DNA of 64,000 nt from Blastocatellia bacterium (lineage in GTDB: Bacteria; Acidobacteriota; Blastocatellia; Pyrinomonadales; Pyrinomonadaceae), in the NCBI GenBank assembly GCA_003168335.1, contig PMSM01000006.1:510320-574319 (forward strand), given 5' to 3'. The notes below the pieces were generated by a model. The model did not search any database, was not told where the DNA came from, and saw nothing but the letters and a program-made list of their open reading frames with translations. The translations under genes were made by a program, and so were the position numbers. Shown here piece after piece: positions 2,020 through 55,370 of the stretch; positions within the stretch are counted from its first letter, which is position 1, and each line of letters opens with the position of its first letter.

Positions 2020-2149
2020 TCCGCAGATTGCGCAGAGAACGAATCATGATTTGTCGGACTAATAAGCCAAGCCGCCCGGGTTGCTCGTCGTAGGTTTCGG
2101 CCTCTCTTGCTCTGTTTCTAATCTGTGAAATCTGCGTCATCTGTGGATC
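2018..2149. repeat. Inverted repeat pair (CCGCAGATTGCGCAG family)
   Basis: AATCCGCAGATTGCGCAG at 2018-2035 is matched in inverted form by CTAATCTGTGAAATCTGCGTCATCTG near 2119-2149. The pair fills the whole space between two convergent genes and encodes the last residues of the monooxygenase. The same family occurs at 12941-13085. Confidence 0.8.
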
Positions 2150-3296
2150 CTGCTTCGTAATTCGCCACAAACGCGGGATCGCGTTTTCGCAAACTCTCGC
2201 GATCGACTTTCCCGCTCCGCGTCATCAAGACATAAGCCAGTTCAACCGGCGCCAAATGCATGTAGTCTCTCGCCTGCTCAAACCAAATCATGCTTTCGTA
2301 AGCCGCAGCCTGGTATTCCTCGATGACCGGCTTGCGCACCTCTTCGAATCGCTGCAGAGCCGCTGGCACATCTGACGTTTCATCGAAGCATTCTTTCAGG
2401 GCAATCGCATCTTCCATTGCCAGTTTTGTGCCTGAGCCAATCGAGAAGTGCGCCGTGTGCAAGGCATCACCCAGCAGCACGACATGTCCGACAAACTTTA
2501 GTTTGTCGTGCTCCCCGCCGAAACTCCAATGCGCGTTTTTCACGAGCAGGAAGTTGAGCCATTTCGAATTGTTTGAAAGCAGCGGCTGACCATTCAGATC
2601 CGCTGCGAATACTTCCGCAAGATAGGCACGCGTTTCTTCATCCGACATTTCGGCGAAACCGGCGCTGTTCCACGTCCCGGGATCACATTCAACGATGAAG
2701 GTGCTGGTGGTTTGGTCGAACTTGTACGAATGCGCCGCGAAGACACCGGCCGGCGTTTCGCGAAAGGTGAGCGTTAGTCCATGAAACAGATGGCTCGTGC
2801 CGAACCAGATGTATTTGTTCGGGCGCACGCTGAGTTCGGGCCGAAACTTATCCTCAAAGGTTTGGCGGACGAGGCTGTTAACACCATCCGCGGCGACCAG
2901 CAGATCGCAATTCGCCTTGAGCGACTCGATTTCCGCAACTTCGTCCCGAAACTTGATTTCGACGCCGAGTTCTTCGCAGCGCTGCTGCAGGATCTTGAGC
3001 AGGCGCAGGCGGGCTATTCCGGAAAAGCTGTTGCCATGGATGGAAATTTTCTCGCCGCGATGAACGACATCGACGTTGTCCCAGGCTTCAAAGTTCCGCG
3101 TGATTTCCGTGTGCGAAGGCCCATCTGCTGAGCGGAGATTGGCCAGTGTCTTGCCGGAGAAAACTACCCCCCAACCAAATGTATCGTCGGGGCCGTTGCG
3201 TTCATGGATGGTGATTTCGTGTGCGGCATCGGCCTTCTTCATGAGGATGGCGAAATACATTCCGGCCGGGCCGCCACCGATGATGTTGATTTTCAT
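2118..3296 (-). CDS. FAD-dependent monooxygenase, salicylyl/anthraniloyl-CoA 5-hydroxylase type
   Basis: 392-residue group A flavoprotein hydroxylase. The Rossmann motif GGGPAG (7-12), FGWGVVFSGKTLANL, the VAADGVNS (DG) motif and the VVLLGDALHTAHFSIGSG (GD) motif with the C-terminal FEQARDYMHLAPVELAYVLMTRS match the N-terminal half of bifunctional salicylyl-CoA 5-hydroxylase / 2-aminobenzoyl-CoA monooxygenase-reductase, in which an OYE domain normally follows in the same chain. Here that half is separate and an OYE gene converges from the left. Two repeat-derived pieces are visible: an in-frame DKLKFVG segment immediately before the GD motif, encoded by a palindrome, and the tail STDDADFTD, encoded by another repeat. 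No Shine-Dalgarno is obvious; the nucleotidyltransferase ends 16 bases upstream. The substrate (anthraniloyl-CoA) is inferred from the kynureninase neighbour. Confidence 0.85.
   Translation of the reverse strand: MKINIIGGGPAGMYFAILMKKADAAHEITIHERNGPDDTFGWGVVFSGKTLANLRSADGPSHTEITRNFEAWDNVDVVHRGEKISIHGNSFSGIARLRLLKILQQRCEELGVEIKFRDEVAEIESLKANCDLLVAADGVNSLVRQTFEDKFRPELSVRPNKYIWFGTSHLFHGLTLTFRETPAGVFAAHSYKFDQTTSTFIVECDPGTWNSAGFAEMSDEETRAYLAEVFAADLNGQPLLSNNSKWLNFLLVKNAHWSFGGEHDKLKFVGHVVLLGDALHTAHFSIGSGTKLAMEDAIALKECFDETSDVPAALQRFEEVRKPVIEEYQAAAYESMIWFEQARDYMHLAPVELAYVLMTRSGKVDRESLRKRDPAFVANYEAGSTDDADFTD
2486..2508. repeat. Palindrome inside CDS (GTCCGACAAACTTTAGTTTGTCG)
   Basis: Single copy of the CGACAAACT/AGTTTGTCG palindrome, located inside the monooxygenase gene. 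Read on the minus strand it encodes DKLKFVG. Intergenic copies occur at 9865-9935, 18941-18993 and 33395-33473, and another intragenic pair at 45192-45251. Confidence 0.85.
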
Positions 3297-9864: not shown

Positions 9865-9935
9865 GTGCGACAAACTTCAATTTGTCGATGTGCCTACTTC
9901 CACTCAAGTGAAGCGACAAACTAAAGTTCGTCGGG
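9865..9935. repeat. CGACAAACT palindrome pair
   Basis: GTGCGACAAACTTCAATTTGTCG and, inverted, GCGACAAACTAAAGTTCGTCG. Each half is itself a palindrome. The pair separates the Rid gene from the upstream VOC gene. Confidence 0.85.
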
Positions 9936-9946
9936 CATCAACAAGA

Positions 9947-18940: not shown

Positions 18941-18993
18941 GTCCGACAAACTTCAGTTTGTCGAATAAGACACGACCAGCTAAAGCTTGTCGA
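18941..18993. repeat. CGACAAACT palindrome pair
   Basis: GTCCGACAAACTTCAGTTTGTCG plus a degenerate inverted second half (CGACCAGCTAAAGCTTGTCG), in the divergent gap between the TPR gene and the oligopeptide ABC ATPase. The second half ends about 14 bases before the ABC gene's ATG. Confidence 0.8.
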
Positions 18994-19006
18994 ACACACG
19001 AGCACC

Positions 19007-22424: not shown

Positions 22425-22474
22425 GCGGTTCGCCTACGGCGCTTCGGCTTTGCGCGGCTTGATTAAAGACGGTC

Positions 22475-23731
22475 TTATTCGTATCTGAGCGATTCGATCG
22501 GATCAAGCCGCGCGGCTTTCCATGCCGGCCACAATCCAAAGATCATGCCGATGCCCACGCTGGCGATAAAGCCGGCCAGAGGGGCCCACAGCGGCACATA
22601 AGAAGGCATGATCAATTTCACTACCAACGTCAGCAGCCAGCCAATCGCCAATCCCAGGAAACCGCCAAAGCCTGTCAGGGTCATCGCTTCGATCAGGAAT
22701 TGCCAGAGGATGTCTTGGCGGCGCGCGCCGATGGCTTTGCGCACTCCGATCTCGCGGGTGCGCTCAGTCACCGACACCAGCATGATATTCATCACGCCGA
22801 TGCCACCAACCATCAAGCCGACCGATGAAATGACCACCATGGCGATGGCAATGCCGCCGGTGATTGAATGAAAGGTGCTGATGAGTGATTCAGTTGTTTC
22901 AATGCCGAAGTTATCCGGGCTACCGAAAGGGACTTGCCGGCGAACGCGGAGCGCGTCGGTCACTTGATCCATGGCTTCCGCCATCATGCCCGGTTTGGCC
23001 ACCGCCATCAGTTCGACGTCTTCGGAGTTGGGTTTCAGTTTGCGGGCGACGTTGTAAGGCATGTAGATGACATTGTTCTGATCGTCGCTGCCGCCGCTAA
23101 ACAGAAACTGCTCGCGCTTCTGCAGTACGCCGACCACTCGGAACTCTTCCGAACCGATCTTAATCGTGGCGTCCACCGGCGAGCCAAACGGGAAGAAATC
23201 GTCTGCCACCTTCGAACCGACCACGCAGACACTTTGATTCTGATCGTTTTCAAACTGGGAAAAAAAACGGCCTTCAGCAACGGTTTGCGTTCCTGCCCTT
23301 TCGAAATCCGGCAGCGTCCCCTGCAGCCCTACCTGGGCGGAAGTTTTGCCGCCACCGCTCACCAGGATCTTCTGGCCAAAGAAATTGTTTGTGATCTCCA
23401 GGAAAGGCACCGCCACTTCTATGGTCGGAAGTTTGGAAAGGAAGATCGCGTCGTCGTACGTGAGCGGCTTGCGCATGCGTTCCTCGCGCGACAGCCGGCC
23501 GACGTGAATGCCCGGGTTGTACTTGCTGATGTACATCGAACGCGTGCCGAATGATTCGACCTCTTTGGTGAACGACGTGTCGATGCCGCTGATAATCGAG
23601 GCAATCAGCATGACGGTGACGACGCCGATGATCACGCCGATGACTGTCAGGAATGAACGCAGCTTGTTGTCACGCAGCGTGGCTAAAGCCAGCCACAGGT
23701 TTTCGAGAATGTCGCTTCTTATCAATTTCAT
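22475..23731 (-). CDS. MacB/FtsX-type ABC transporter permease (fourth of four)
   Basis: 418-residue permease with the MacB layout: one N-terminal TM helix after DNKLRSFLTVIGVIIGVVTVML, a large periplasmic domain (~230 residues), then three TM helices. GIGVMNIMLVSVTERTREIGVRKAIGARRQDI is the conserved FtsX motif, and the tail GLWPAWKAARLDPIESLRYE is characteristic. It is the last gene of a run that starts with the adaptor at 30072. CAAAGATT precedes the ATG at 23731; an earlier ATG at 23788 only adds an unconserved leader. Forms, with the ATPase at 27791, a MacAB-like exporter or substrate-extrusion system. Confidence 0.9.
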   Translation of the reverse strand: MKLIRSDILENLWLALATLRDNKLRSFLTVIGVIIGVVTVMLIASIISGIDTSFTKEVESFGTRSMYISKYNPGIHVGRLSREERMRKPLTYDDAIFLSKLPTIEVAVPFLEITNNFFGQKILVSGGGKTSAQVGLQGTLPDFERAGTQTVAEGRFFSQFENDQNQSVCVVGSKVADDFFPFGSPVDATIKIGSEEFRVVGVLQKREQFLFSGGSDDQNNVIYMPYNVARKLKPNSEDVELMAVAKPGMMAEAMDQVTDALRVRRQVPFGSPDNFGIETTESLISTFHSITGGIAIAMVVISSVGLMVGGIGVMNIMLVSVTERTREIGVRKAIGARRQDILWQFLIEAMTLTGFGGFLGLAIGWLLTLVVKLIMPSYVPLWAPLAGFIASVGIGMIFGLWPAWKAARLDPIESLRYE

Positions 23732-23823
23732 AATCTTTGGTCCTTGTACTTTGGTCTTTGCTCCCCGGGCTCTTTGAACCTGGTACAAATTGAGGTCAAG
23801 GTTCGAAGATCAGAGCGCAAAGA

Positions 23824-25065
23824 TCATAACTCTGTTCTTAGTGCCTCGATCGGATCCAACCGCGCAGCTTTCCACGCAGGCACGATTCCGGAAAGTACCC
23901 CCATTCCTCCGGATACTGCCAGAGCGAACAGAATCGCCAGGAGCGAAAGGTACGTGGGGAAGATCATCGCAGTAACAACCTTACCCACAATCCACGCCAG
24001 AAAAATACCGATGGCCCCGCCGATTGTGGCCATTGTGATGGCTTCAAACAAGAACTGTTTCAAGATGTCGCCCTTGCGGGCGCCCAGCGACTTGCGCAGC
24101 CCAATTTCTTTGGTGCGCTCAGTTACCGACACCAGCATGATGTTCATGATAACGATGGCACCAACGATTAAGGCTATGAAAGGGACGGCGATCGCGACAA
24201 TGAAAATCGTGCCGAAAAGCCGATCGCGCAAACCGGTGATCGCATCCGGCGTCACGATCCCAAAGTTGTCTTTCTCGTTCGGTCCCAGGTGACGGCGCGC
24301 GCGCATGAGGAGTCTGGCCTCCTCAACCGCGTCGTTGAATCCAGCATCAGTCCTTGAGGTGGCCACAAAGTAAAGCGAGCGTTGCCGCTGCAGCGTGCCA
24401 AAGTTAACCGCATAGGTCTTTAGCGGAATGATTATGAAGTTATCCTGCGGTATGCCGAACACTGTGCCTTTGACCTCTTCGACTCCAATGACCCGATATG
24501 GCAAGCCGGCGATCGAGATCTCTCCACCCACGGGATTGCCCGCGGGAAACAGCTTGGTGGCGATGTCCGCCCCGACATAGGCCACCCGCGCCGCGCCATC
24601 ATTTTCGGTATCTGTGAAGAAGCGTCCATTGGCGATATTGCGATTGTCGATCTCCGCCGTATTTCCCGTGGCGCCAATCACGATAACATCCTGGAGCACT
24701 TGATCGTTGCGCTTGACTTCCGAAGGCGTGCCGCGGGCTTTGGCTCCAATCTTGCCGATGAGCGTCGCGTGGTCTTTCAGGTAATCGTAGTCTTCCAGCG
24801 TCAGCTCCTTATTACGACGCTGGGCGGCCGCGATGGTGTCGGTATCCTTGAAGTCCTCGAACGGGTTGAAACGCTGAACCGAAAATGATTTGGCGCCGAT
24901 GCCGGCAATCTTTTCGTCAATGTAAACGTTAAAGCCCTGAATCAGGGATACCACGGTGACAAACGCCGTGACCCCTACGATCATGCCCAGCAGTGTCAGC
25001 GCCGAGCGCAACTTGTGCGCCCAGATTGCCGCCACTGCAACTTTGAGGACTTCAAAGAGGTTCAT
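23824..25065 (-). CDS. MacB/FtsX-type ABC transporter permease (third of four)
   Basis: 413 residues with the same organisation: HKLRSALTLLGMIVGVTAFVTVVSLIQGF (TM1), periplasmic MacB-core domain, then IVIMNIMLVSVTERTKEIGLRKSLGARKGDI and a C-terminal GIVPAWKAARLDPIEALRTEL. The periplasmic domain differs clearly from its paralogues, so it could recognise a different partner. Lies in the same-strand run, 93 bases from the fourth permease. Confidence 0.9.
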   Translation of the reverse strand: MNLFEVLKVAVAAIWAHKLRSALTLLGMIVGVTAFVTVVSLIQGFNVYIDEKIAGIGAKSFSVQRFNPFEDFKDTDTIAAAQRRNKELTLEDYDYLKDHATLIGKIGAKARGTPSEVKRNDQVLQDVIVIGATGNTAEIDNRNIANGRFFTDTENDGAARVAYVGADIATKLFPAGNPVGGEISIAGLPYRVIGVEEVKGTVFGIPQDNFIIIPLKTYAVNFGTLQRQRSLYFVATSRTDAGFNDAVEEARLLMRARRHLGPNEKDNFGIVTPDAITGLRDRLFGTIFIVAIAVPFIALIVGAIVIMNIMLVSVTERTKEIGLRKSLGARKGDILKQFLFEAITMATIGGAIGIFLAWIVGKVVTAMIFPTYLSLLAILFALAVSGGMGVLSGIVPAWKAARLDPIEALRTEL

Positions 25066-25115
25066 TGCTACTAGTACGGATGACGAAGGGTTTTGGTTAC
25101 TAGTTCGGGTCGAGC

Positions 25116-25189
25116 GTGTCAGAAGCCCGACCGTCAGGGAGGGCTCCTCCCATTAGGCTGGCCCTCCCTGACGGTCGGGCTTCTGACAC
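25116..25189. repeat. GTGTCAGAAGCCCGACC inverted repeat inside the permease operon
   Basis: GTGTCAGAAGCCCGACCGTC, AGGGAGGGCTC and, after a short spacer, GGCCCTCCCTGACGGTCGGG and CTTCTGACAC form a nearly perfect long hairpin between the second and third permease genes. A stem of this size in the mRNA could attenuate expression of the two genes downstream. Confidence 0.9.
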
Positions 25190-25196
25190 GATACAT

Positions 25197-26438
25197 TTAT
25201 TCATATCTCAGCGATTCAATTGGATCCAGCCGCGCCGCCTTCCAGGCGGGCCACAACCCGAAAACGATCCCCACGGCGGCTGAGACGCCTACACCCACGC
25301 CGATTGCCCAGACCGGAACAAAAGCCGGCAGCGGCGAGTACTTGTTCATTAGAATGCTGGCCAACTCTCCTACGGCCAGCCCCAGGAGGCCGCCGATTCC
25401 CGTCAGCACCACGGCTTCAATCAAGAACTGCCAAAGAATGTTGCTCCGCGTCGCCCCTACTGCTTTGCGCAAGCCGATCTCTTTGGTCCGCTCGGTAACA
25501 GAAACCAGCATGATATTCATCACGCCGATGCCGCCAATCATCAGCGCCACAAACGAAATCGCGGTCAGCACCAGATACGTCGCGCCGGTCAGCTGGTTGT
25601 AAATGTCGAGCAGCGCGTCCTGGGACGATATGCCGAAGGTATTGGGCGCGCCCAGCGGTACGCGGCGGCGGCGGCGCATGATGTCGGTCATCTCGTCAAC
25701 CGCGGATTTTACATAAGCGCGCGACACTGGCCGGACAATGATCACGTAGATGCTTTCGGGAAAGTGCAGCTCGGGATAGTACTTTTCAAACGTCTTGATC
25801 GGTATAAAGATAGAGTTGTCGCGCGACTGACCGAGAAAGTTGCCCAGCGGCTCCATCACGCCGATCACCTTAAAGGGTTTGCCGGCAATCTTGACCTGCT
25901 TATCCAGCGGATCGGTAAAAGGGAACAGCGCCTTGACCAGGTCCTGTCCCACCACACAGACATTCGAGCGTTCTTCCACGTCCAGATCGGTGATAAAGCG
26001 GCCGCGCCCGACATAACTGGATTGGGTGAACTCGTAGTACGGCGTGACGCCGAGCAGGATCGGCGTGTCGCTCTGCTTGTCTTCGTAACGCACCGTCTCG
26101 GCAATCTTGCGATAGAGCGGAGAGACGCTCATCGCCGAGGGCGCTTCGCGGCGAACGGCATCAGCATCGTCGAGCGTCAGTTCCTTGCGGTGCAGCTCTT
26201 CGGAGTTCGGTTGATGGCCGAAGCTGGGTTCGAATTTCGTCATCCAGATCGAGTTCGAGCCCAGCGCTTCGATCTGCTCAGCAAATGACTTGTTGAGGCC
26301 CTGAATGATCGACACCATAAAGACCACCGTGACCACTCCCACACTGACACCAAGAATAGTCAGCATTGAGCGCAGCTTGTTTGCGCGCACGGTGTCGAGC
26401 GCCATGAAAGCGGATTCTTTAAGGTCGATGAAGTTCAT
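25197..26438 (-). CDS. MacB/FtsX-type ABC transporter permease (second of four)
   Basis: 413 residues. RANKLRSMLTILGVSVGVVTVVFMVSIIQGL is TM1 and GIGVMNIMLVSVTERTKEIGLRKAVGATRSNILWQFL the conserved FtsX motif; the protein ends GLWPAWKAARLDPIESLRYE, almost the same tail as the fourth permease. The stop of the first permease is only three bases upstream of this gene's start, so the two are co-translated. The periplasmic segment (SVSPLYRKIAETVRYEDKQSDTP) fits the MacB core domain. Confidence 0.9.
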   Translation of the reverse strand: MNFIDLKESAFMALDTVRANKLRSMLTILGVSVGVVTVVFMVSIIQGLNKSFAEQIEALGSNSIWMTKFEPSFGHQPNSEELHRKELTLDDADAVRREAPSAMSVSPLYRKIAETVRYEDKQSDTPILLGVTPYYEFTQSSYVGRGRFITDLDVEERSNVCVVGQDLVKALFPFTDPLDKQVKIAGKPFKVIGVMEPLGNFLGQSRDNSIFIPIKTFEKYYPELHFPESIYVIIVRPVSRAYVKSAVDEMTDIMRRRRRVPLGAPNTFGISSQDALLDIYNQLTGATYLVLTAISFVALMIGGIGVMNIMLVSVTERTKEIGLRKAVGATRSNILWQFLIEAVVLTGIGGLLGLAVGELASILMNKYSPLPAFVPVWAIGVGVGVSAAVGIVFGLWPAWKAARLDPIESLRYE

Positions 26439-26441
26439 CGC

Positions 26442-27779
26442 TTACTCGGATCTCAGGGCCTCAATCGGATCCAACTTCGCCGCCCTCCATGCCGGCCACA
26501 GACCGCTAATCACGCCAACAATGGACGACGTGCTGACACCCAGCACGGCCGACCAGGCACTGAAAAGCAGGGGAAAACCGATCAGCAAAGCAATCAACCA
26601 GGCCACCGCAAACCCGGTCAGGACACCCAGCGCACCTCCGATCGCGGTAACCGTGACGGCTTCAATCAGAAACTGCGTAAGTATATCTTTCCGGCGTGCA
26701 CCCACGGCTTTACGAATACCGATTTCTTTCGTGCGTTCAGTCACTGAAACCAGCATGATGTTCATCACCACGATGCCGCCCACGACCAGCGAGATGGCTG
26801 AAACGCCGATCGTCACGACATAGATATTCGCGGTCGCGCTGGTATAGAGATTCAGAAATACATCCTGGGTCTCGAGCGCAAAGCCGTCGTCTTCGTCACG
26901 AAAAGTCCTGCCGCGCCGGTTGCGCAATACGGCCCGAGCCTGATCTTCGGCCTGCTCGAGTTGCGGCGCCGTCTCAGTCTGGATGAATACTACCAGCGAG
27001 TTGTGGGCGCCAAAGTTCTTTTCGAAATTCGCATAAGGTATATAAATGATGTTGTCACGCGAAGCCCCGAAGATTTTGCCCAGCGGTTGCAGGATACCGA
27101 TGATCGTGAACTTATGACCACCAGTCCAGATGTCCTGGCCGATAGCGCGATCCAACGGCACATCAGGAAACAGATTGGTCACCACGTCCGGACCGACAAC
27201 GCAAACTTCACGCGCCGCGGCACTTTCACTTTCAGTCCAGATGCGACCGATATCGATTGTCACGCCGTCAATGTCGAACATCGCCGCCGGTGTGACCGCC
27301 CGCAGGCGCACGCCTTCAAACTTCTGATCGCCGTGTTTGGCAATCTCGAAGCTATTGGCCGCGATGCCCGTGCGCCAGCACGCCGTGCAGGATCTGAAAA
27401 TGGCTTCAGCGTCTTCGCGTACGACATCCTTGCGCTTGTTGAACTTGATAAAGTCTTCCCGCGAAGTAATGACCTGCGGCCGCTTCGAGATCGTGAACAC
27501 GGTCGAACCCTGTGAAGAGAAGGTCGAGGCCACGGTCTGATCCAATCCCTTGATGATCGTGACCACGGCAATCACCGCCGTCACCCCGACAATAATCCCA
27601 ACCAGGGTCAGCACCGTGCGCAGTTTGTTTTGACGCAGACTGGCCGCCGCAACCAGGAAGGCTTCCCAAAGCGCGGCGATCCGGAAGACTGGAAACGAAC
27701 GGATTCTGGAGGGACGTGAAATGCGTTTGCCGAAGGCATCACCAGCGGCCTCCGGTTTTGCGTCGCTGCGCGGGGACAT
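26442..27779 (-). CDS. MacB/FtsX-type ABC transporter permease (first of four)
   Basis: 445 residues; it has a longer, basic, N-terminal cytoplasmic leader (~40 residues) before LRQNKLRTVLTLVGIIVGVTAVIAV (TM1). The periplasmic domain has two Cys close together (SCTACWRTGI), unlike its paralogues, possibly a disulphide. GIVVMNIMLVSVTERTKEIGIRKAVGARRKDI and the tail SGLWPAWRAAKLDPIEALRSE are conserved. It starts 11 bases after the ATPase stop. Confidence 0.9.
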   Translation of the reverse strand: MSPRSDAKPEAAGDAFGKRISRPSRIRSFPVFRIAALWEAFLVAAASLRQNKLRTVLTLVGIIVGVTAVIAVVTIIKGLDQTVASTFSSQGSTVFTISKRPQVITSREDFIKFNKRKDVVREDAEAIFRSCTACWRTGIAANSFEIAKHGDQKFEGVRLRAVTPAAMFDIDGVTIDIGRIWTESESAAAREVCVVGPDVVTNLFPDVPLDRAIGQDIWTGGHKFTIIGILQPLGKIFGASRDNIIYIPYANFEKNFGAHNSLVVFIQTETAPQLEQAEDQARAVLRNRRGRTFRDEDDGFALETQDVFLNLYTSATANIYVVTIGVSAISLVVGGIVVMNIMLVSVTERTKEIGIRKAVGARRKDILTQFLIEAVTVTAIGGALGVLTGFAVAWLIALLIGFPLLFSAWSAVLGVSTSSIVGVISGLWPAWRAAKLDPIEALRSE

Positions 27780-33394: not shown

Positions 33395-33473
33395 GTCCGA
33401 CAAACTTTAGTTTGTCGTAAATACCCGAAGAGAGCGGTTGCAGATGTTATCGACAAACTGAAGTTTGTCGGAA
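33395..33473. repeat. CGACAAACT palindrome pair
   Basis: GTCCGACAAACTTTAGTTTGTCG and, inverted, CGACAAACTGAAGTTTGTCG with a 33-base spacer. The right half ends about 12 bases before the ATG of the phosphatase gene and so occupies its 5' leader. Confidence 0.9.
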
Positions 33474-37996: not shown

Positions 37997-38017
37997 AACC
38001 GTTTCAACGGTTTTCCT
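37997..38017. repeat. CCGTTTCAACGG palindrome, left flank of transposase remnant
   Basis: AAACCGTTTCAACGGTTTTCC. The same unit is at 38540-38560 in inverted orientation and again at 44427-44472. It provides the TGA that ends the transposase remnant. Confidence 0.8.
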
Positions 38018-38462
38018 CGTCGCGCCATTCCAAGCCGTAGCGCTTGACGAAGAGTTCATACTCTTCCGTAAAGCTCTTCTTTCGGTGATGCTCTTCCTGG
38101 CGAGCGATGTAGTTTGCAACTCTACTTACATCGGAGTGCGAGACCGAAAAAGCTCCGTATCCTCTGCCCCAAGCGAATCTGCCTTTGACCAGATGGTTCT
38201 GATTGATTCAATGTGACGAACTACCCTTAAGAAGTTGAATCACCTGTTCGATCGTTAGACTTGTAGGAAGATCAATCAGCGCGTGAGTGTGCTCCGCGTT
38301 GAAGTAGTTAATCTTCATGTAGATGCCTTTCTCATTCGCATATTCCGACAGATTTATGGAAGCCCGCGCCGCCGCGCGCTTGTCCAGCATCAGCTCGCGG
38401 CGAAGCGTTTCCCAGATCACGTGAAGCCAGCAGCGCGAGTAAGAGTGAGTTGACCTTGGGGG
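38004..38462 (-). pseudogene. IS200-type Y1 transposase, inactivated by an in-frame stop
   Basis: Continuous similarity to a Y1_Tnp transposase in one frame from ~38462 to 38004, broken once. N-terminal part: STHSYSRCWLHVIWETLRRE, then MKINYFNAEHTHALIDLPTS with the HUH motif (HTH). After KGSSSH a TGA stands at 38210-38208 where homologues have Trp (SSHWIN), a single-base TGG to TGA change. The frame then continues INQNHLVKGRFAWGRGYGAFSV, SRVANYIARQEEHH and ends RDEENR. No clear ATG is available at the 5' end either (a Pro codon sits where Met is expected). It is flanked by inverted CCGTTTCAACGG palindromes and outside these by the 36-bp direct repeats. Confidence 0.85.
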
Positions 38463-38539: not shown

Positions 38540-38560
38540 GGAAACCGTTGAAACGGTTAA
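38540..38560. repeat. CCGTTGAAACGG palindrome, right flank of transposase remnant
   Basis: GGAAACCGTTGAAACGGTTAA, inverted relative to 37997-38017. The rest of 38463-38719 holds CCACCCGGCTGAAGCCG-type repeat sequence and copy 2 of the 36-bp repeat; no gene is seen. Confidence 0.8.
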
Positions 38561-42365: not shown

Positions 42366-44309
42366 TCACTGATCAATAAAAGCTCGCTGCCACAATTCCA
42401 AAGTCAGCAACTGAAACACCTGCAAGTTATAGTCTTCTCTGCCCGAAAGGTTCGCGTCGATAACTCGCTTCACTTCTTCCGGCCGGAAAAGACCGCGGCG
42501 CTTGATCGTCTCTGCCGACAACAAATCATTCACCATTGGTTGCAAAGGCCCGCGCAGCCATGAACGAATCGGCGCGCCGAATCCGGCCTTCTTCCGCCAG
42601 ACAACTTCGCGCGGCAAAAGCTTCTCTGCGGCGCGCTTCAGGATGTACTTGCGCTTCAATCCGCGCAGCTTCAAATGGGTCGGCATGCGCGCGGTCAGGT
42701 CCAGCATTTCCTGGTTGAGAAACGGTACGCGCACCTCCAGGTTCGCCGCCATTGAAGTCTTGTCCGTGGTCATTAGATTCAAGCACGGCAGAAATGTTTT
42801 CAGATCGACGTAAAGCAGTTGGTTTAGCGGCGCTGCGTTTTTCACGCGCGCAAAGTAGCGGCGATGCGCGCTGTAAGCATCCAGGCCCTGCGTCGCCCCC
42901 CGCATCTCGTCCGTATAAAGTCGGGTCTTCGCTTCGTCAGTAAAGTACGTTTCGTACCCGAGGTAACGATCCTCGAAATCCAGCGCCGCACTGCGCGCAA
43001 ATTTTTTCGCATTGCGCAGTGGCGCAGTCAGTTTTCCCGGCAGGCCACCCGGCAAAACGTTTGCCAGCGTTCTCATCAGCGGCCGCCTGAGCAGTTGCGG
43101 CACCGGATCGAACGCACCCGCAATTTTCATCGCGAGTTGCCGTGGATAGCCGGCAAAAACTTCGTCGCCGCCCATTCCTGAAAGCATGACAGTCAAAGTC
43201 TCGCGCGCCGCGCGTGAAACCAGATAGCTGGGAATCGCCATGTCGATCGCCGGCTCGTCCATGTGATAGACAAGTTTCGGTAACAGCTCAGCCACGTCAG
43301 GCTGCAGCATGATCTCGTGATAGTCGGTGTCCAGTTGCTGGTTTACGCGGCGGGCCCACTGGACATCATCGGGAATAATGTCATAGCGCAGGTCTTCGGC
43401 TTCGATTCCGATCGTGTACGTGCCGATGCGTCGCCCGTCGCTGTGATGCTTCATCATCGCGACGATTGATGATGAATCAATTCCACCGGAAAGAAACGAT
43501 CCCAACGGCACGTCCGCGACCATCTCGAGTTTCACCACGCGCTCAAGCGTCTCCAGGACCTGCTCTTGCCACCACCCGTCGCTCTTTCCTTCTTCAATTG
43601 AGTCGAAGGAAATGTCCCACCACTCGCGGACATTCAATTCGTTCTTGCGCAGCGTCACGATGTGACCGGGCGGAACCGTTCTGATTCCTCGAAAGAGCGT
43701 ATTTGGATCGGGTACCCACAGGAAGGTCAGGAATTGGTGCAGCCTCTCTCGATCAAGCTCGGCCTTGACCAGACCACTGGCCAGGATCGATTTGATCTCG
43801 GAAGCGAATACGAAAGAGTTGGGAGCGCCGGCATCCTGCGCGCCTTCGGTTGCATAATAGAGCGGCTTGATGCCTACGCGATCGCGGACCAGAAAGAGCG
43901 TGCGTGCTCTCTCGTCCCACAGCGCGAAGGCAAACATGCCGTTCAGACGCGGGAGGCAATCCTCGCCCCATTCCGCCCACGCGGCCAGCAGAACCTCGGT
44001 GTCCGTCTGCGTCCGAAAGCTGTGGCCTTTGGTAGTGAGGTACTCACGCAACTCGCGATAGTTGTAAATTTCGCCGTTGAGAATTACGACCAGCCGCCCG
44101 TCAGAAGAAAGCATCGGCTGATGTCCGGCAGCGCTGGTGTCGATGATTGACAGACGCCGGTGGCCGAAGCAGACGCCCTGGCCCTCGTCGTTGATTGGGG
44201 ACGAAGTCCAGACACCTTCATCGTCGCGCCCACGATGCTCAATGGCTTTCAGCATCGCGCCAACGCGCGTCGCGGGGTCTTGGGTTATAAGTCCAGCGAT
44301 ACCGCACAT
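42366..44309 (-). CDS. asnB: Asparagine synthetase-type amidotransferase (AsnB family)
   Basis: 647 residues. The processed N-terminal Cys (MCGIAGLI) heads the class II glutaminase domain (HRGRDDEGVW, FGHRRLSIID, LVVILNGEIYNYRELREYL, RDRVGIKPLYY). The synthetase domain has the PPi-loop LSGGIDSSSIVAMM and VMLSGMGGDEVFAGYPRQ. It transfers glutamine nitrogen to an ATP-activated carboxylate. Inside a polysaccharide cluster such proteins amidate uronic acids (WbpS type) as often as they make asparagine. The start is fixed by the Cys2 requirement. A paralogue lies at 58663-60594. Confidence 0.9.
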   Translation of the reverse strand: MCGIAGLITQDPATRVGAMLKAIEHRGRDDEGVWTSSPINDEGQGVCFGHRRLSIIDTSAAGHQPMLSSDGRLVVILNGEIYNYRELREYLTTKGHSFRTQTDTEVLLAAWAEWGEDCLPRLNGMFAFALWDERARTLFLVRDRVGIKPLYYATEGAQDAGAPNSFVFASEIKSILASGLVKAELDRERLHQFLTFLWVPDPNTLFRGIRTVPPGHIVTLRKNELNVREWWDISFDSIEEGKSDGWWQEQVLETLERVVKLEMVADVPLGSFLSGGIDSSSIVAMMKHHSDGRRIGTYTIGIEAEDLRYDIIPDDVQWARRVNQQLDTDYHEIMLQPDVAELLPKLVYHMDEPAIDMAIPSYLVSRAARETLTVMLSGMGGDEVFAGYPRQLAMKIAGAFDPVPQLLRRPLMRTLANVLPGGLPGKLTAPLRNAKKFARSAALDFEDRYLGYETYFTDEAKTRLYTDEMRGATQGLDAYSAHRRYFARVKNAAPLNQLLYVDLKTFLPCLNLMTTDKTSMAANLEVRVPFLNQEMLDLTARMPTHLKLRGLKRKYILKRAAEKLLPREVVWRKKAGFGAPIRSWLRGPLQPMVNDLLSAETIKRRGLFRPEEVKRVIDANLSGREDYNLQVFQLLTLELWQRAFIDQ

Positions 44310-44353: not shown

Positions 44354-44513
44354 GAGGTGCTCTCTCATTAACACCCTGCTTCAGCAAGGTGGCAGCGAGA
44401 CGTGCACATAAGAAAGAACCGTTTTCAACGGTTTGCCTGAGAAGCCGTTGAAACGGCTTTGCCAGTTCCGGTTGAATCTGGTACACCTCGCTGCAGCGAG
44501 GTGCTAATGAAAT
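44354..44513. repeat. Nested inverted repeats before the GT39 gene
   Basis: Inner pair: AACCGTTTTCAACGGTTTG and AGCCGTTGAAACGGCTTTG (44427-44472). Outer pair: CTCATTAACACCCTGCTTC facing TGCAGCGAGGTGCTAATGA. The Shine-Dalgarno-like GAGGT of the glycosyltransferase gene and its ATG (44507) are inside the outer right arm. Confidence 0.8.
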
Positions 44514-46435
44514 CAGTCCCGCTCATGTCCAGCCGAGAGCCTGTTGTCAACGCCGCTTCACCGCGTCGCACTCGCTTCGCTATCTGCTTATTCATCTTTC
44601 TCACCGCTTTCGGCGTCCGGTTCTTGTCCTGGCATGATACACGCCTCGAGGTTGGAAAAGTACAGACCGTTGTCACCGCCGATTACCAGCGAGTCGCTCA
44701 CCTGCTCAGGCAAGGCGGCATCGCTTCATTTCTGAGTCCGTCATCACCACTCAGCGATCTCAACACTCTTGGTCACCCGCCGGGTTATTCGATTTTGATG
44801 GCGAAGATCTCCTGGGCGCTCGGCGAGTCGAATACCACCGTCCAGTTCGTCCAAATCATCGGCGACGCGCTGGCGGCCGTAATCATCTTTCTGATCGTCG
44901 CTGAATTATTGCCGCTGAGCGCCGCGCTCATTGCCGGAATGCTGGCTGCGTTTTCGCCACAGTTCGCGTGGAACTCTGTCCTGCTCTTGCCTGACTCTCT
45001 GGCGGTGCTGCCGATTTTGCTCGCCGTCTACTGCCTGGCGCGCGCAGGGCGCAATCCCCGCTTCGTCACCTTCATCATTGCTGGCGCACTGCTGGGAATT
45101 TCGTGTTGGCTAAGAGCGAACGCCATGCTGCTGACCTTCTTCCTGGGAGCCGCGGTGCTGCTGCTCGTCAGGAAACAAGAGGTCGCAAAAGGTCCGACAA
45201 ACTTCAGTTTGTCGTTATCCCCAGAACGCGACAGACTAAAGTTTGTCGGACAACGATGGCGTTATGCGCTCTCTATCATTTTCGGCACGTTGCTGATCGT
45301 CCTGCCGCTGACGATCCGAAACGCGATCGTTTTTCATCGCTTCATTCCCCTCTCACTGGGCGCGGGCCAGACTCTGCTCGAAGGGATTGCCGACTACGAT
45401 CCGGCGGGGCGATTCAACATTCCCAACACCGACATAGGAATCATGAAACAGGAGGCCGAAGCCTTTCACCGGCCTGATTATTTCGGCACGCTGTTTAATC
45501 CCGATGGAGTTGAGCGCGAGCGTTGGCGTCTGGCGCGCGGCTTTGGGGTTATTCGCCGTCACCCTTTCTGGTTTTCGGGAGTGATGTCCCGTCGCGCAGC
45601 CTCGATGCTGAGACTGGAACGATCTCGTCTGGTTTCGACGGACCCACCAGTTAGTCATTCGCTCGCAGCTGTAGACAAGCGGGAACCCGTCTGGACGAAC
45701 CGGGCCGAAGACTTACTCGCGACCGGAGTCGTGTCTCCGCAAGCTAGCGCAGCCCTTCTGCCCGATGGTGTAATTCTTGTTCTTACGGGTGACTGTGAAA
45801 AATATGGCGAGCAACTCCTGTCGCCACCGATTCCGGTGCAGCAGAACAACGACTACGTCTTTACGGTCCCCATCAAGATCGAACGGGGACGAATGAAGAT
45901 AAGCGTGAAAGACTCGAGCGGAAAAGTTTATTCGTCAGCGATCGTCGAAACCCTGGAAACTATTTCGCCAGACGCGCAGCCCGTCAATCAGATTCAACTT
46001 CCCTTTGTCGCCACGAAAAACGAGCAGGCGCGAATCGTGTTTAGTAACGAAGCGTCTAATCCGCCGAACCCCGTGGCGCAGATCGGCACGACCAAACTCT
46101 TCGAACTCGGACCGTCACGATTTCTTTGGACGCGCTATCCTCGCTTTGTCGTACACGCAGTGCAGAAAATCTTTTTGACCGCCGTCATCCTGCCGCTGGC
46201 AATCATCGGGCTTGGGCTATTGATAATCCGCCGCGCCAGTCGGGCCCTGATCATTCTCTCGGTCGTTCCCGTCTACTTCTTCTGTGTGCAATCAATCGTG
46301 CACACTGAGTATCGCTACGTGCTGGCAGTTGATTATTTTCTGTTCGCGTTGGCGGCGGTGAGTGTTTCGTGGGCTATCCGTCTGGTTATGACGCGCTCCT
46401 ATTCGCTGGGAGCGCGGACGGCCCGTCCGCATTGA
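44507..46435 (+). CDS. GT39-like membrane glycosyltransferase with repeat-encoded insert
   Basis: 642 residues, about 11 TM segments, of the dolichyl-P-mannose mannosyltransferase/ArnT-like superfamily. FGVRFLSWHDTRLEVGKVQ starts the first periplasmic loop; LGHPPGYSILMAKISWALG and PQFAWNSVLLLPDSLAVLPILL are conserved. A paralogue lies at 52611-54038 (shared SCWLRANAML, LGAGQTLLEGI/LGAGTNLWEGI, ARRHP-like segment). Between TM segments a GPTNFSLSLSPERDRLKFVG stretch, absent from the paralogue, is encoded exactly by the 60-bp repeat at 45192-45251. A C-terminal periplasmic beta-rich domain precedes four final TM helices. The tail YSLGARTARPH is encoded by another repeat. It would transfer a sugar from a polyprenyl-phosphate donor outside the membrane. 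Confidence 0.82.
   Translation: MKSVPLMSSREPVVNAASPRRTRFAICLFIFLTAFGVRFLSWHDTRLEVGKVQTVVTADYQRVAHLLRQGGIASFLSPSSPLSDLNTLGHPPGYSILMAKISWALGESNTTVQFVQIIGDALAAVIIFLIVAELLPLSAALIAGMLAAFSPQFAWNSVLLLPDSLAVLPILLAVYCLARAGRNPRFVTFIIAGALLGISCWLRANAMLLTFFLGAAVLLLVRKQEVAKGPTNFSLSLSPERDRLKFVGQRWRYALSIIFGTLLIVLPLTIRNAIVFHRFIPLSLGAGQTLLEGIADYDPAGRFNIPNTDIGIMKQEAEAFHRPDYFGTLFNPDGVERERWRLARGFGVIRRHPFWFSGVMSRRAASMLRLERSRLVSTDPPVSHSLAAVDKREPVWTNRAEDLLATGVVSPQASAALLPDGVILVLTGDCEKYGEQLLSPPIPVQQNNDYVFTVPIKIERGRMKISVKDSSGKVYSSAIVETLETISPDAQPVNQIQLPFVATKNEQARIVFSNEASNPPNPVAQIGTTKLFELGPSRFLWTRYPRFVVHAVQKIFLTAVILPLAIIGLGLLIIRRASRALIILSVVPVYFFCVQSIVHTEYRYVLAVDYFLFALAAVSVSWAIRLVMTRSYSLGARTARPH
45192..45251. repeat. CGACAAACT palindrome pair inside the GT39 gene
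   Basis: GTCCGACAAACTTCAGTTTG then TCGTTATCCCC and the inverted half CGACAGACTAAAGTTTGTCG ending GAC. Exactly 60 bases, i.e. 20 codons in frame, so the reading frame survives the insertion. Confidence 0.9.
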
Positions 46436-52554: not shown

Positions 52555-52631
52555 GTGTCAGAAGCCCGACCGTTAGGGAGGGCTGGTCGCCATTCCACGC
52601 GAGCCCTCCCTTACGGTCGGGCTTCTGGCAC
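52555..52631. repeat. GTGTCAGAAGCCCGACC inverted repeat, third copy
   Basis: GTGTCAGAAGCCCGACCGTT, AGGGAGGGCTGG, spacer, then CGAGCCCTCCCTTACGGTCG and GGCTTCTGGCAC. The right arm contains the TAA stop (52611-52613) of the GT39 gene. Confidence 0.9.
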
Positions 52632-54038
52632 TTCAGTGAATGCCGAAAGCTTCCGGCTGACGGCGAATTCCTTTAGGCGCCACAAAGCGAGACCGGCAAA
52701 GATGGTCAGCAAAGCGTGCATCGGAAGTCCGTAGCGGATGTGCGTGTGCATCATCGAGCCGACCACCAGATAATAGAACACAGTTGCCATGATTAACGCG
52801 GTCGTGCGCCAATCCGAACGGAAAGCCAGGATCGCTCCCACCAGCATCAACGGCAGCAGAACGTAGCGCAAGACGCTCTGAAACATTCCGAGAGTATTGA
52901 CGAACACCGCCACGACCCCGCCTTGCCATTCCGGCGGCAAAGATTTCCTGCTCGTGACGTTGATGCCTGCGCTTCCATAAATGCCGGAAGGCTCTCCAGC
53001 ATACTTCATGACGGCGGCCATCCGGTGCACGACCGTGCCCGCGTACCAGATGGGATGCCGTGCGATGATCGCCAGAGCTTTGCTCGTGCGCTCGCGGTCG
53101 CGGCGAATGCCGTCGGGGTAATAGAGATCAAATGGTGCATCGGGCGGAACCTGAAGTGCTGCGCGTTCCTGCTCAACCAGATCACGATCATTCGGCGCCG
53201 CGCCGAACTCTTTCGCGCCTCGCTCAGTCTCGCCGATGCCTTCCCACAGATTAGTTCCGGCGCCCAGGCCGGTCGGCACGAAAGCATGAAACGCGATGAC
53301 GTTTCGCACCACGACCGGCGCAATCACGAGCATGGCCGCGAGCGTTACGCCGGCGCTCAAGAGAACCCGCCGCCGCCAATTGGCCTGAACAAACAAAAAC
53401 AGTGCGAGCGCCCAGAAGAATAGGAGCAACATTGCGTTGGCTCGCAGCCAGCACGAAGCGCCGACGAGTGCGCCCGCCCCTAAAGCCCAGCCAATGCTCT
53501 GTCGCTTGGCCGCCAGCAGCAGCATCCACGCCGCTCCCACGACAATCCAGGCCGTGGGCGCATCGGCTAACGGGGCCGCGCCGGACAGCGCCAGCAAGGG
53601 CCAGACCGCCGCAATCCATCCGGCCCCGAGTCCGGTGCGCCAACCAAAAGCTGTCACCCCCGCGCCGACGATCAAAAGCACCGAGAAAGAGTCGAGCACC
53701 CACTGCACGTTCTGAACTGCGCCCGGAGACCTTCTGCCGGTCAGGGTGTAGATGAAGGCCAACCACAGCGGATAACCCGGCGGATAAATCGCCGCATCCG
53801 TGTGTGAAGGATCGTCGATCCAGAAAATAGATGCGCGTCCATCAAGCCAGCCCTGCGCCTGACGATCGAAGGCCGCATAGATGCCGCTGGGAAACCAGCC
53901 CGGTTCGTTGAGATGCGCGCGCACAAAATTCGCGGTCAGGGCGCGCACGGTGAACGCGAGCAGCAGGATGAAGAAGAGCGCCAGAATCCGCCGTCGTGTT
54001 TGTGATGGAAAACTAGTCAAGGATATTGATCGTCTCAC
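52611..54038 (-). CDS. GT39-like membrane glycosyltransferase
   Basis: About 475 residues and ten TM segments. ALTANFVRAHLNEPGWFPSG, AAIYPPGYPLWLAFIYTLTG, ASCWLRANAMLLLFFWALAL, VVRNVIAFHAFVPTGLGAGT and RHPIWYAGTVVHRMAAVMKY are shared with the paralogue at 44507-46435, while the large periplasmic C-terminal domain is missing. The tail EVPEARP is encoded by the repeat at 52555-52631. The start is uncertain: the open frame reaches 54179 but its first 45 codons are repeat sequence; I propose a GTG at 54038, 26 residues before the first TM helix. Probably transfers a sugar from a polyprenyl phosphate donor. Confidence 0.78.
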   Translation of the reverse strand: MRRSISLTSFPSQTRRRILALFFILLLAFTVRALTANFVRAHLNEPGWFPSGIYAAFDRQAQGWLDGRASIFWIDDPSHTDAAIYPPGYPLWLAFIYTLTGRRSPGAVQNVQWVLDSFSVLLIVGAGVTAFGWRTGLGAGWIAAVWPLLALSGAAPLADAPTAWIVVGAAWMLLLAAKRQSIGWALGAGALVGASCWLRANAMLLLFFWALALFLFVQANWRRRVLLSAGVTLAAMLVIAPVVVRNVIAFHAFVPTGLGAGTNLWEGIGETERGAKEFGAAPNDRDLVEQERAALQVPPDAPFDLYYPDGIRRDRERTSKALAIIARHPIWYAGTVVHRMAAVMKYAGEPSGIYGSAGINVTSRKSLPPEWQGGVVAVFVNTLGMFQSVLRYVLLPLMLVGAILAFRSDWRTTALIMATVFYYLVVGSMMHTHIRYGLPMHALLTIFAGLALWRLKEFAVSRKLSAFTEVPEARP

Positions 54039-55087: not shown

Positions 55088-55120
55088 GAGTTTTCAAATC
55101 GGCAGACCGAAGATGGACTA

Positions 55121-55350
55121 TTCAATGAGCCATCGAAGATGGCGGCAGAGTGTAGCCCCGGGCATGAGCCCGGGGGAACTCAAGAAAAAATCAATGAGCC
55201 CCGAAGGGGCGACAGAGTTTCTCGGTATTCCAATTGAGCGAACGATTTCTGCTGCCCGCTAAAGCGGGCTTAGAATCCTATCGGACCCTGATCCCCGGGC
55301 TTACGCCCGGGGCTACACTCTGCCGCCGTCTGCGACGGCTCGGTGAGCAG
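55121..55350. repeat. Large inverted array with CCCGGGC palindromes
   Basis: TCAATGAGCCATCG...GGCGGCAGAGTGTAGCCCCGGG on the left faces CCCGGGGCTACACTCTGCCG, CGGCTCGGTGAGCA on the right. Inside are AGCCCCGAAGGGGCGACAG and GCCCGCTAAAGCGGGCTTAG. It fills the gap between a methyltransferase and a glycosyltransferase; no gene is seen in it. A short relative (GATGAGCCATCGTAGATGG) is at 20049. Confidence 0.85.
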
Positions 55351-55370
55351 TCCACCCTAAGTCCATTCAT

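Follow-up and report, generated by a model that had tools for sequence, protein, structure and literature searches.

A REP-type palindromic repeat pair lying in frame within a membrane glycosyltransferase gene of a Blastocatellia bacterium

The 60-bp palindromic repeat pair at 45192-45251 very probably belongs to a dispersed, non-autonomous family of REP/REPIN-type palindromes, one copy of which was inserted into the gene of a membrane glycosyltransferase and has been tolerated in a loop between two helices of the protein. The window, that is, the whole stretch of 64,000 nucleotides analyzed here, corresponds to positions 510320-574319 of contig C9 in a genome (G000) of 5.16 Mb and 14 contigs. 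The original prediction had placed such a pair in frame within a membrane glycosyltransferase, and this was borne out, since both arms were located, the reading frame is open throughout, and its product matches PMT_2 (2.3e-13) and PMT (3.3e-6), both over the Pfam gathering cut-offs. The features concerned are the following:

45192-45214, + strand: first arm of the pair, exact match to the unit GTCCGACAAACTTYAGTTTGTCG
45229-45251, - strand: second arm, inverted, one mismatch to GTCCGACAAACTTYAGTTTGTCG
44507-46435, + strand: GT39/PMT-type membrane glycosyltransferase of 642 aa, bearing the insert (ORF and Pfam)
52611-54038, - strand: paralogous PMT_2 glycosyltransferase without the insert (Pfam and alignment)

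The two arms lie head-to-head with a spacer of 14 nt, and the anatomy of the element, hereafter the GTCC element, is REPIN-like. With up to three mismatches, the half-site GTCCGACAAACTTYAGTTTGTCG occurs 66 times in the forward and 63 times in the reverse orientation (approximately 129 in the 5.16-Mb genome), while a reversed-pattern control gave 0 occurrences in the same genome; the repeat matches at 45192-45251 are thus far beyond chance. The 71 sites examined comprise 46 head-to-head pairs and 25 singles, the pairs measuring 55-151 bp (mostly 55-90 bp), with spacers that vary in length and are mostly unrelated in sequence between copies. The consensus is at-GTCC..-N-..GGAC-at, and most copies have an (A)TGTC tag followed by CGACAAAC-TTYA-GTTTGTCG. 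The RNA of 45192-45251 is predicted to fold as one long hairpin (-34.9 kcal/mol, z -8.9). Among congeners, the exact core is present in G001-G004 at 2-27 sites and absent from G005 and G006; beyond these it is encountered again in G010, G014 and G032. The survey of genes versus intergenic regions refers to the listed sites and not to every degenerate copy.

Five sites of the element were found in the 64-kb window, four of them outside the glycosyltransferase gene:

9865-9936, + strand: pair, intergenic (repeat search)
18941-18995, + strand: pair touching a gene edge, with a degenerate second arm (repeat search)
33395-33473, + strand: pair, intergenic, just upstream of an ATG (repeat search)
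2486-2508, + strand: half-element within the FAD monooxygenase gene, in frame
2118-3296, - strand: FAD monooxygenase gene, relative of salicylyl-CoA 5-hydroxylase/VioD, with this single in-frame half-element

At least three intergenic copies had been counted before; the pairs at 9865-9936 and 33395-33473 are indeed intergenic, but 2486-2508, possibly included in that count, lies in frame in a gene, and 18941-18995 touches a gene edge. The half-element at 2486-2508 contributes about 10 amino acids (GGEHDKLKFVGH) ahead of the VVLLGDALHTAHFSIGSG motif of the monooxygenase, and these extra residues are missing in 17/17 homologues.

In the glycosyltransferase, the element is open in the frame of the gene (..VAK GPTNFSLSLSPERDRLKFVGQ RWR..) and encodes residues 229-249, approximately. 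It measures 60 nt, which is the length of 20 codons as had been claimed, yet it starts at codon position 2 and is therefore not aligned to codons. The insert is missing from the paralogue at 52611-54038, as had been noticed from the sequence, and likewise from 20 homologues of relatives and from 23 homologues taken from genome contigs, a set that overlaps the 20. The closest named homologues come from MAGs such as gp4 AA24, AA26, UBA11740 and Centralia_MAG_6, and named relatives put the genome in the Pyrinomonadaceae (Acidobacteriota, Blastocatellia); the tblastn alignment is interrupted at residues 222/248 in most relatives. None of the homologues carries the element at this place, nor was the same non-repeat stretch found there in distant ones, so that among the homologues and congeners compared the GTCC insert in the glycosyltransferase is restricted to one genome. 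An AlphaFold model built with 23 sequences (mean pLDDT 84.5) places the insert between the helices 204-220 and 239-276, which agrees with the proposed position in a loop between transmembrane segments; most of the insert has a pLDDT of about 58-60, and its final residues enter the start of helix 239-276. The positive charge of the insert loop suggests that it lies on the cytoplasmic side. Besides the element, the loop of the window is about five residues (QEVAK) longer than that of G004. Repeats of other families are found at the ends of both paralogous genes: at 46405-46435 (+ strand) a repeat of the GCTGGGAGCGCGGACG family encodes the final nine residues of the glycosyltransferase, LGARTARPH, and the stop, and the C-terminal VPEARP and stop of the paralogue are encoded by the third repeat family (GTGCCAGAAGCCCGACCGTAA, 52603-52631).

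The same loop has received other repeats in congeners. The genomes G001, G003 and G006 have inserts of their own there, and the loop DNA of G001 forms the twin hairpin GCGAGCAGGATGCTCGCGAACCGCCGCCAAGATGCCGGCGCTCC, which belongs to another family and is more or less decayed in G003 and G006; relatives of this twin-hairpin family were found elsewhere, in low copy, in 7/7 genomes of the genus. In the glycosyltransferase gene tree, G001, G003 and G006 form a clade (support 0.991) to which neither the window nor G004 belongs, so that unrelated repeats must have been inserted into this loop at least twice. A comparable situation was observed in the asparagine synthetase gene that adjoins the glycosyltransferase:

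42366-44309, - strand: asparagine synthetase AsnB, whose GIKPLYY..FASEIK loop holds repeats
43822-43839, - strand: half copy of the twin-hairpin (second) family, GCAGGATGCCGGCGCTCC, giving the peptide QDAGAP in frame in AsnB

In G004, this AsnB loop contains a GTCC half-element and another hairpin; in G003 and G001 it is occupied by the third repeat family (TGTCAGAAGCCYGACCGTRAGGGAGGGC), present in 90-94 copies in these two genomes (control, 0), while G006 has a twin-hairpin copy and G005 half of one.

The search for in-frame copies in other genes was also productive, and in the genome of the window internal GTCC copies are in frame in MoaA, the FAD monooxygenase, the glycosyltransferase and an ORF of 501 aa, the latter with two homologues only. 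In G004, of which 16 contig stretches were covered, five genes carry in-frame copies, namely those of MoaA, an exosortase, a P1-type peptidase-like protein, a sugar nucleotidyltransferase and an S1C-type protease-like protein, where the copy lies near the N terminus/signal peptide; the names of the peptidase, which has no NCBIfam match, and of the protease were read from sequence. In both G000 and G004, the MoaA loop ahead of DLALTTNG is occupied by the GTCC element; it is empty in most other homologues, and in G010 (locus L147) the same loop contains in frame a heptamer-like tandem repeat (ATTCAGGATTCAGG..ATCCAAAATCC). The MoaA with the insert is the only moaA copy found in G000, its TIGR02666 score stays over the cut-off with the match divided at the insert, and the gene is under purifying selection on either side of the insert (dN 0.07-0.09, dS approximately 1.05, G000 vs. 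G004). The exosortase of G004 and that of G002 carry the GTCC element, and its counterpart in the genome of the window has a different repeat, one of the GGGAACGCGGACGG type present in the window. Four loops, those of the glycosyltransferase, AsnB, MoaA and the exosortase, thus carry different, unrelated repeats in frame across species. No convincing case of a gene split out of frame was found among the 71 GTCC sites, as expected if disruptive insertions are purged; two candidates were dismissed, one being the end of a LarA-like ORF and the other an antisense frame. At 2560-2621 of locus L107 (C7:366059), a LarA-like ORF of at least 436 aa, so named by reading and without profile support, ends in a GTCC repeat (..LVSDKL-stop) that supplies the stop codon.

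Two of these loops give an indication of the age of the insertions. The MoaA elements of G000 and G004 are both 80 bp long and 19/34 spacer positions are identical (shuffle p 5e-5), and with equal length and similar spacers a single ancestral insertion is likely. Both 23-nt arms (46 nt) are identical between the two genomes, with a flanking dS of approximately 1.05, and the probability that the arm codons would all have stayed free of silent changes is roughly 4e-4 to 7e-4, a value that concerns one locus, tested after being noticed. The exosortase elements of G004 and G002 are both 78 bp long with 18/32 identical spacer positions (p 2e-4), and their arms, aligned by eye, differ at 6/46 positions. 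At the intergenic sites apparently common to G000 and G004 (L204/L096 and L206/L104), the arms are near the consensus. The concatenated FastTree tree, (G005,(G004,(G000,((G001,G002),(G003,G006))))), in which the order of G004 and G000 is weakly supported (0.719), explains the MoaA insert by one gain and one loss, no MoaA having been found in G002, and the exosortase insert by several losses or a second gain.

As to the origin of the copies, the genome has 14 matches to the Y1_Tnp profile, and a GTCC repeat was found within 1.5 kb of 0/14 of these loci, the nine best of which are bounded by other inverted repeats. Our search found no cognate transposase and no transposition event of the GTCC element, and no target-site duplication could be recognized; a flanking AT..AT is common at its copies, and the empty site of the glycosyltransferase cannot be aligned to the base, the loop being variable. 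We infer that the REP/REPIN-type copy in the glycosyltransferase gene was produced by an enzyme acting in trans, which may be one of the Y1 transposases. This copy would have survived because its length keeps the frame, it is read through without a stop, and the inter-helix loop can accommodate about 20 residues; purifying selection against disruptive insertions, together with loop tolerance, would decide which copies stay. In this way the same loops would be hit again and again by whichever families are active in each lineage. Judging from the open frame and the conserved flanks, the insert is presumably translated, and the glycosyltransferase bearing it is presumably made and working. The simplest view would be that the element is mobile selfish DNA, and nothing shows that it is of service to the protein.

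Other features of the window touch on mobile or repeated DNA. At 38097-38441 lies a frame that resembles a Y1 transposase and contains an internal TGA; inverted repeats of the AACCGTTTCAACGGTT kind are located at 37997 and at 38543, and a hairpin similar to AACCGTTTCAACGGTT is found at 44443-44458, upstream of the glycosyltransferase. No known RNA family was matched at the element in the Rfam search of the window, whose sole match is Acido-Lenti-1 (RF01687, 40.6 bits) at 55293-55340; this match shares positions with the second arm of a 71-nt inverted repeat pair (55105-55363). At 22474-26804, direct repeats of 76 and 185 nt, four in all and 1.2-1.4 kb apart, probably reflect tandem paralogous genes.

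Of the other explanations, the one with the greatest claim to attention is that the palindrome is kept for a role in DNA or RNA, e.g., as a protein-binding or supercoiling site or as an mRNA hairpin, the peptide being merely tolerated. The identity of the MoaA arms over 46 nt despite the low chance of silent constancy, the near-consensus arms at the intergenic sites apparently shared with G004 and the very stable fold of the window copy all speak in its favor. However, the MoaA result comes from a single intragenic locus tested after it was noticed, the exosortase arms did diverge, congeners have lost or never had the MoaA insert, and homogenization with other copies, a possible cause of the constant arms, predicts the same pattern; we regard such a role as rather improbable. 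It is far less probable that the insert is an adaptive new segment, for instance a helix extension or a binding site, selected for its residues. The frames GPTNFSLS..DRLKFVG and DKLKFVG do recur in several membrane and soluble proteins, but this is simply a consequence of the repeat having frames without stops. Moreover, unrelated repeats, even simple tandem ones, fill the same loops in relatives, the spacer peptide drifts in MoaA, and the loop of the window is modeled with low confidence.

That no insertion took place at all, the stretch being an ancestral loop lost in every other lineage or a chance palindrome, is the least credible reading and can hardly be entertained. The loop varies among homologues, and its long forms in some congeners had raised the suspicion of an ancestral loop; this was ruled out when the DNA of those loops proved to be copies of a different repeat family. 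Chance had already been set aside in favor of insertion in the original prediction. Against this reading stand the match to a repeat of approximately 129 half-sites and the absence of the stretch from every homologue, the nearest included; repeat counts and gene tree both contradict it. The insertion of a dispersed REP/REPIN-type palindrome into a tolerant loop accordingly remains our preferred explanation.

The mechanism is already known in kind from intragenic REPs and Rickettsia palindromic elements. CGTC/TGTC-tagged REPs are short hairpins without an associated transposase, some of which lie in ORFs and add approximately 20-30 aa (Di Nocera et al. 2013, PMC3733652). The GTCC element resembles them in its TGTC-like 5' tag, 8-bp stem, 4-nt loop, mostly head-to-head dimers, dispersion and lack of a transposase, and the superfamily is defined by a CGTC (or TGTC, CCTC) tag, a stem of 8-9 bp and a loop of 4-5. 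Nevertheless, we do not place the element in it, because its stem starts with C-G/G-C, while nearly all CGTC units start with A-T, and because no CCA tail is evident, the sequence after the hairpin being variable. The sole mention of Acidobacteria found in that work concerns tyrosine transposases and not these repeats, of which no report in Acidobacteria was found in the open-licence literature. Rickettsia palindromic elements are described as selfish sequences of about 150 bp with a conserved peptide, in frame in unrelated conserved genes at fold-compatible positions (Ogata et al. 2000, 2002; PMC10969869). The GTCC element is likewise palindromic DNA read in frame in conserved genes (glycosyltransferase, MoaA, FAD monooxygenase, exosortase and others), but it consists of short arms with a variable spacer unrelated between copies, and it resides in acidobacterial genomes of 4-6 Mb with several repeat families. 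With REPINs, which according to the account of REPIN-RAYT systems in PMC8049555 persist long-term in vertical lineages, it shares a self-complementary unit, whose 23 nt fall within the 20-40 bp of REPs, in many copies, mostly as inverted dimers with a variable spacer; unlike them, it flanks none of the Y1 transposase genes represented by the 14 Y1_Tnp matches. ERIC and the QMITE1 of Coxiella, described as MITEs with in-frame fusions (PMC10969869), are also non-autonomous inverted-repeat elements adding peptide to host genes, whereas the interior of the GTCC element is not conserved and no parent insertion sequence was found.

What is new is the turnover of several families at the same loops, and the identity of the MoaA arms while the spacer and nearby synonymous sites diverged; the only hint of such turnover in the literature consulted is recB of Xanthomonas, in which different REPs lie at about the same site, in one case (PMC3733652). 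Tentatively, and with more doubt than conviction, we propose that throughout the genus unrelated palindromic families may act as a standing source of loop material, fixed loops of conserved enzymes, on the surface or between helices, being filled, emptied and refilled in frame by one family or another in the course of species divergence, with the coding arms kept unchanged in the DNA itself. Palindromic insertions read in frame are known above all from Rickettsia, whose intracellular genome is reduced, and from REP-rich bacteria, in which cross-species comparisons are scarce. Since at least four loops carry different repeats in related species, one can trace on a tree how protein segments made from repeats are gained, decay, are lost and are replaced, and this soil lineage, with genomes of 4-6 Mb, allows one to ask whether an intragenic palindrome is maintained on account of its DNA or of its peptide.
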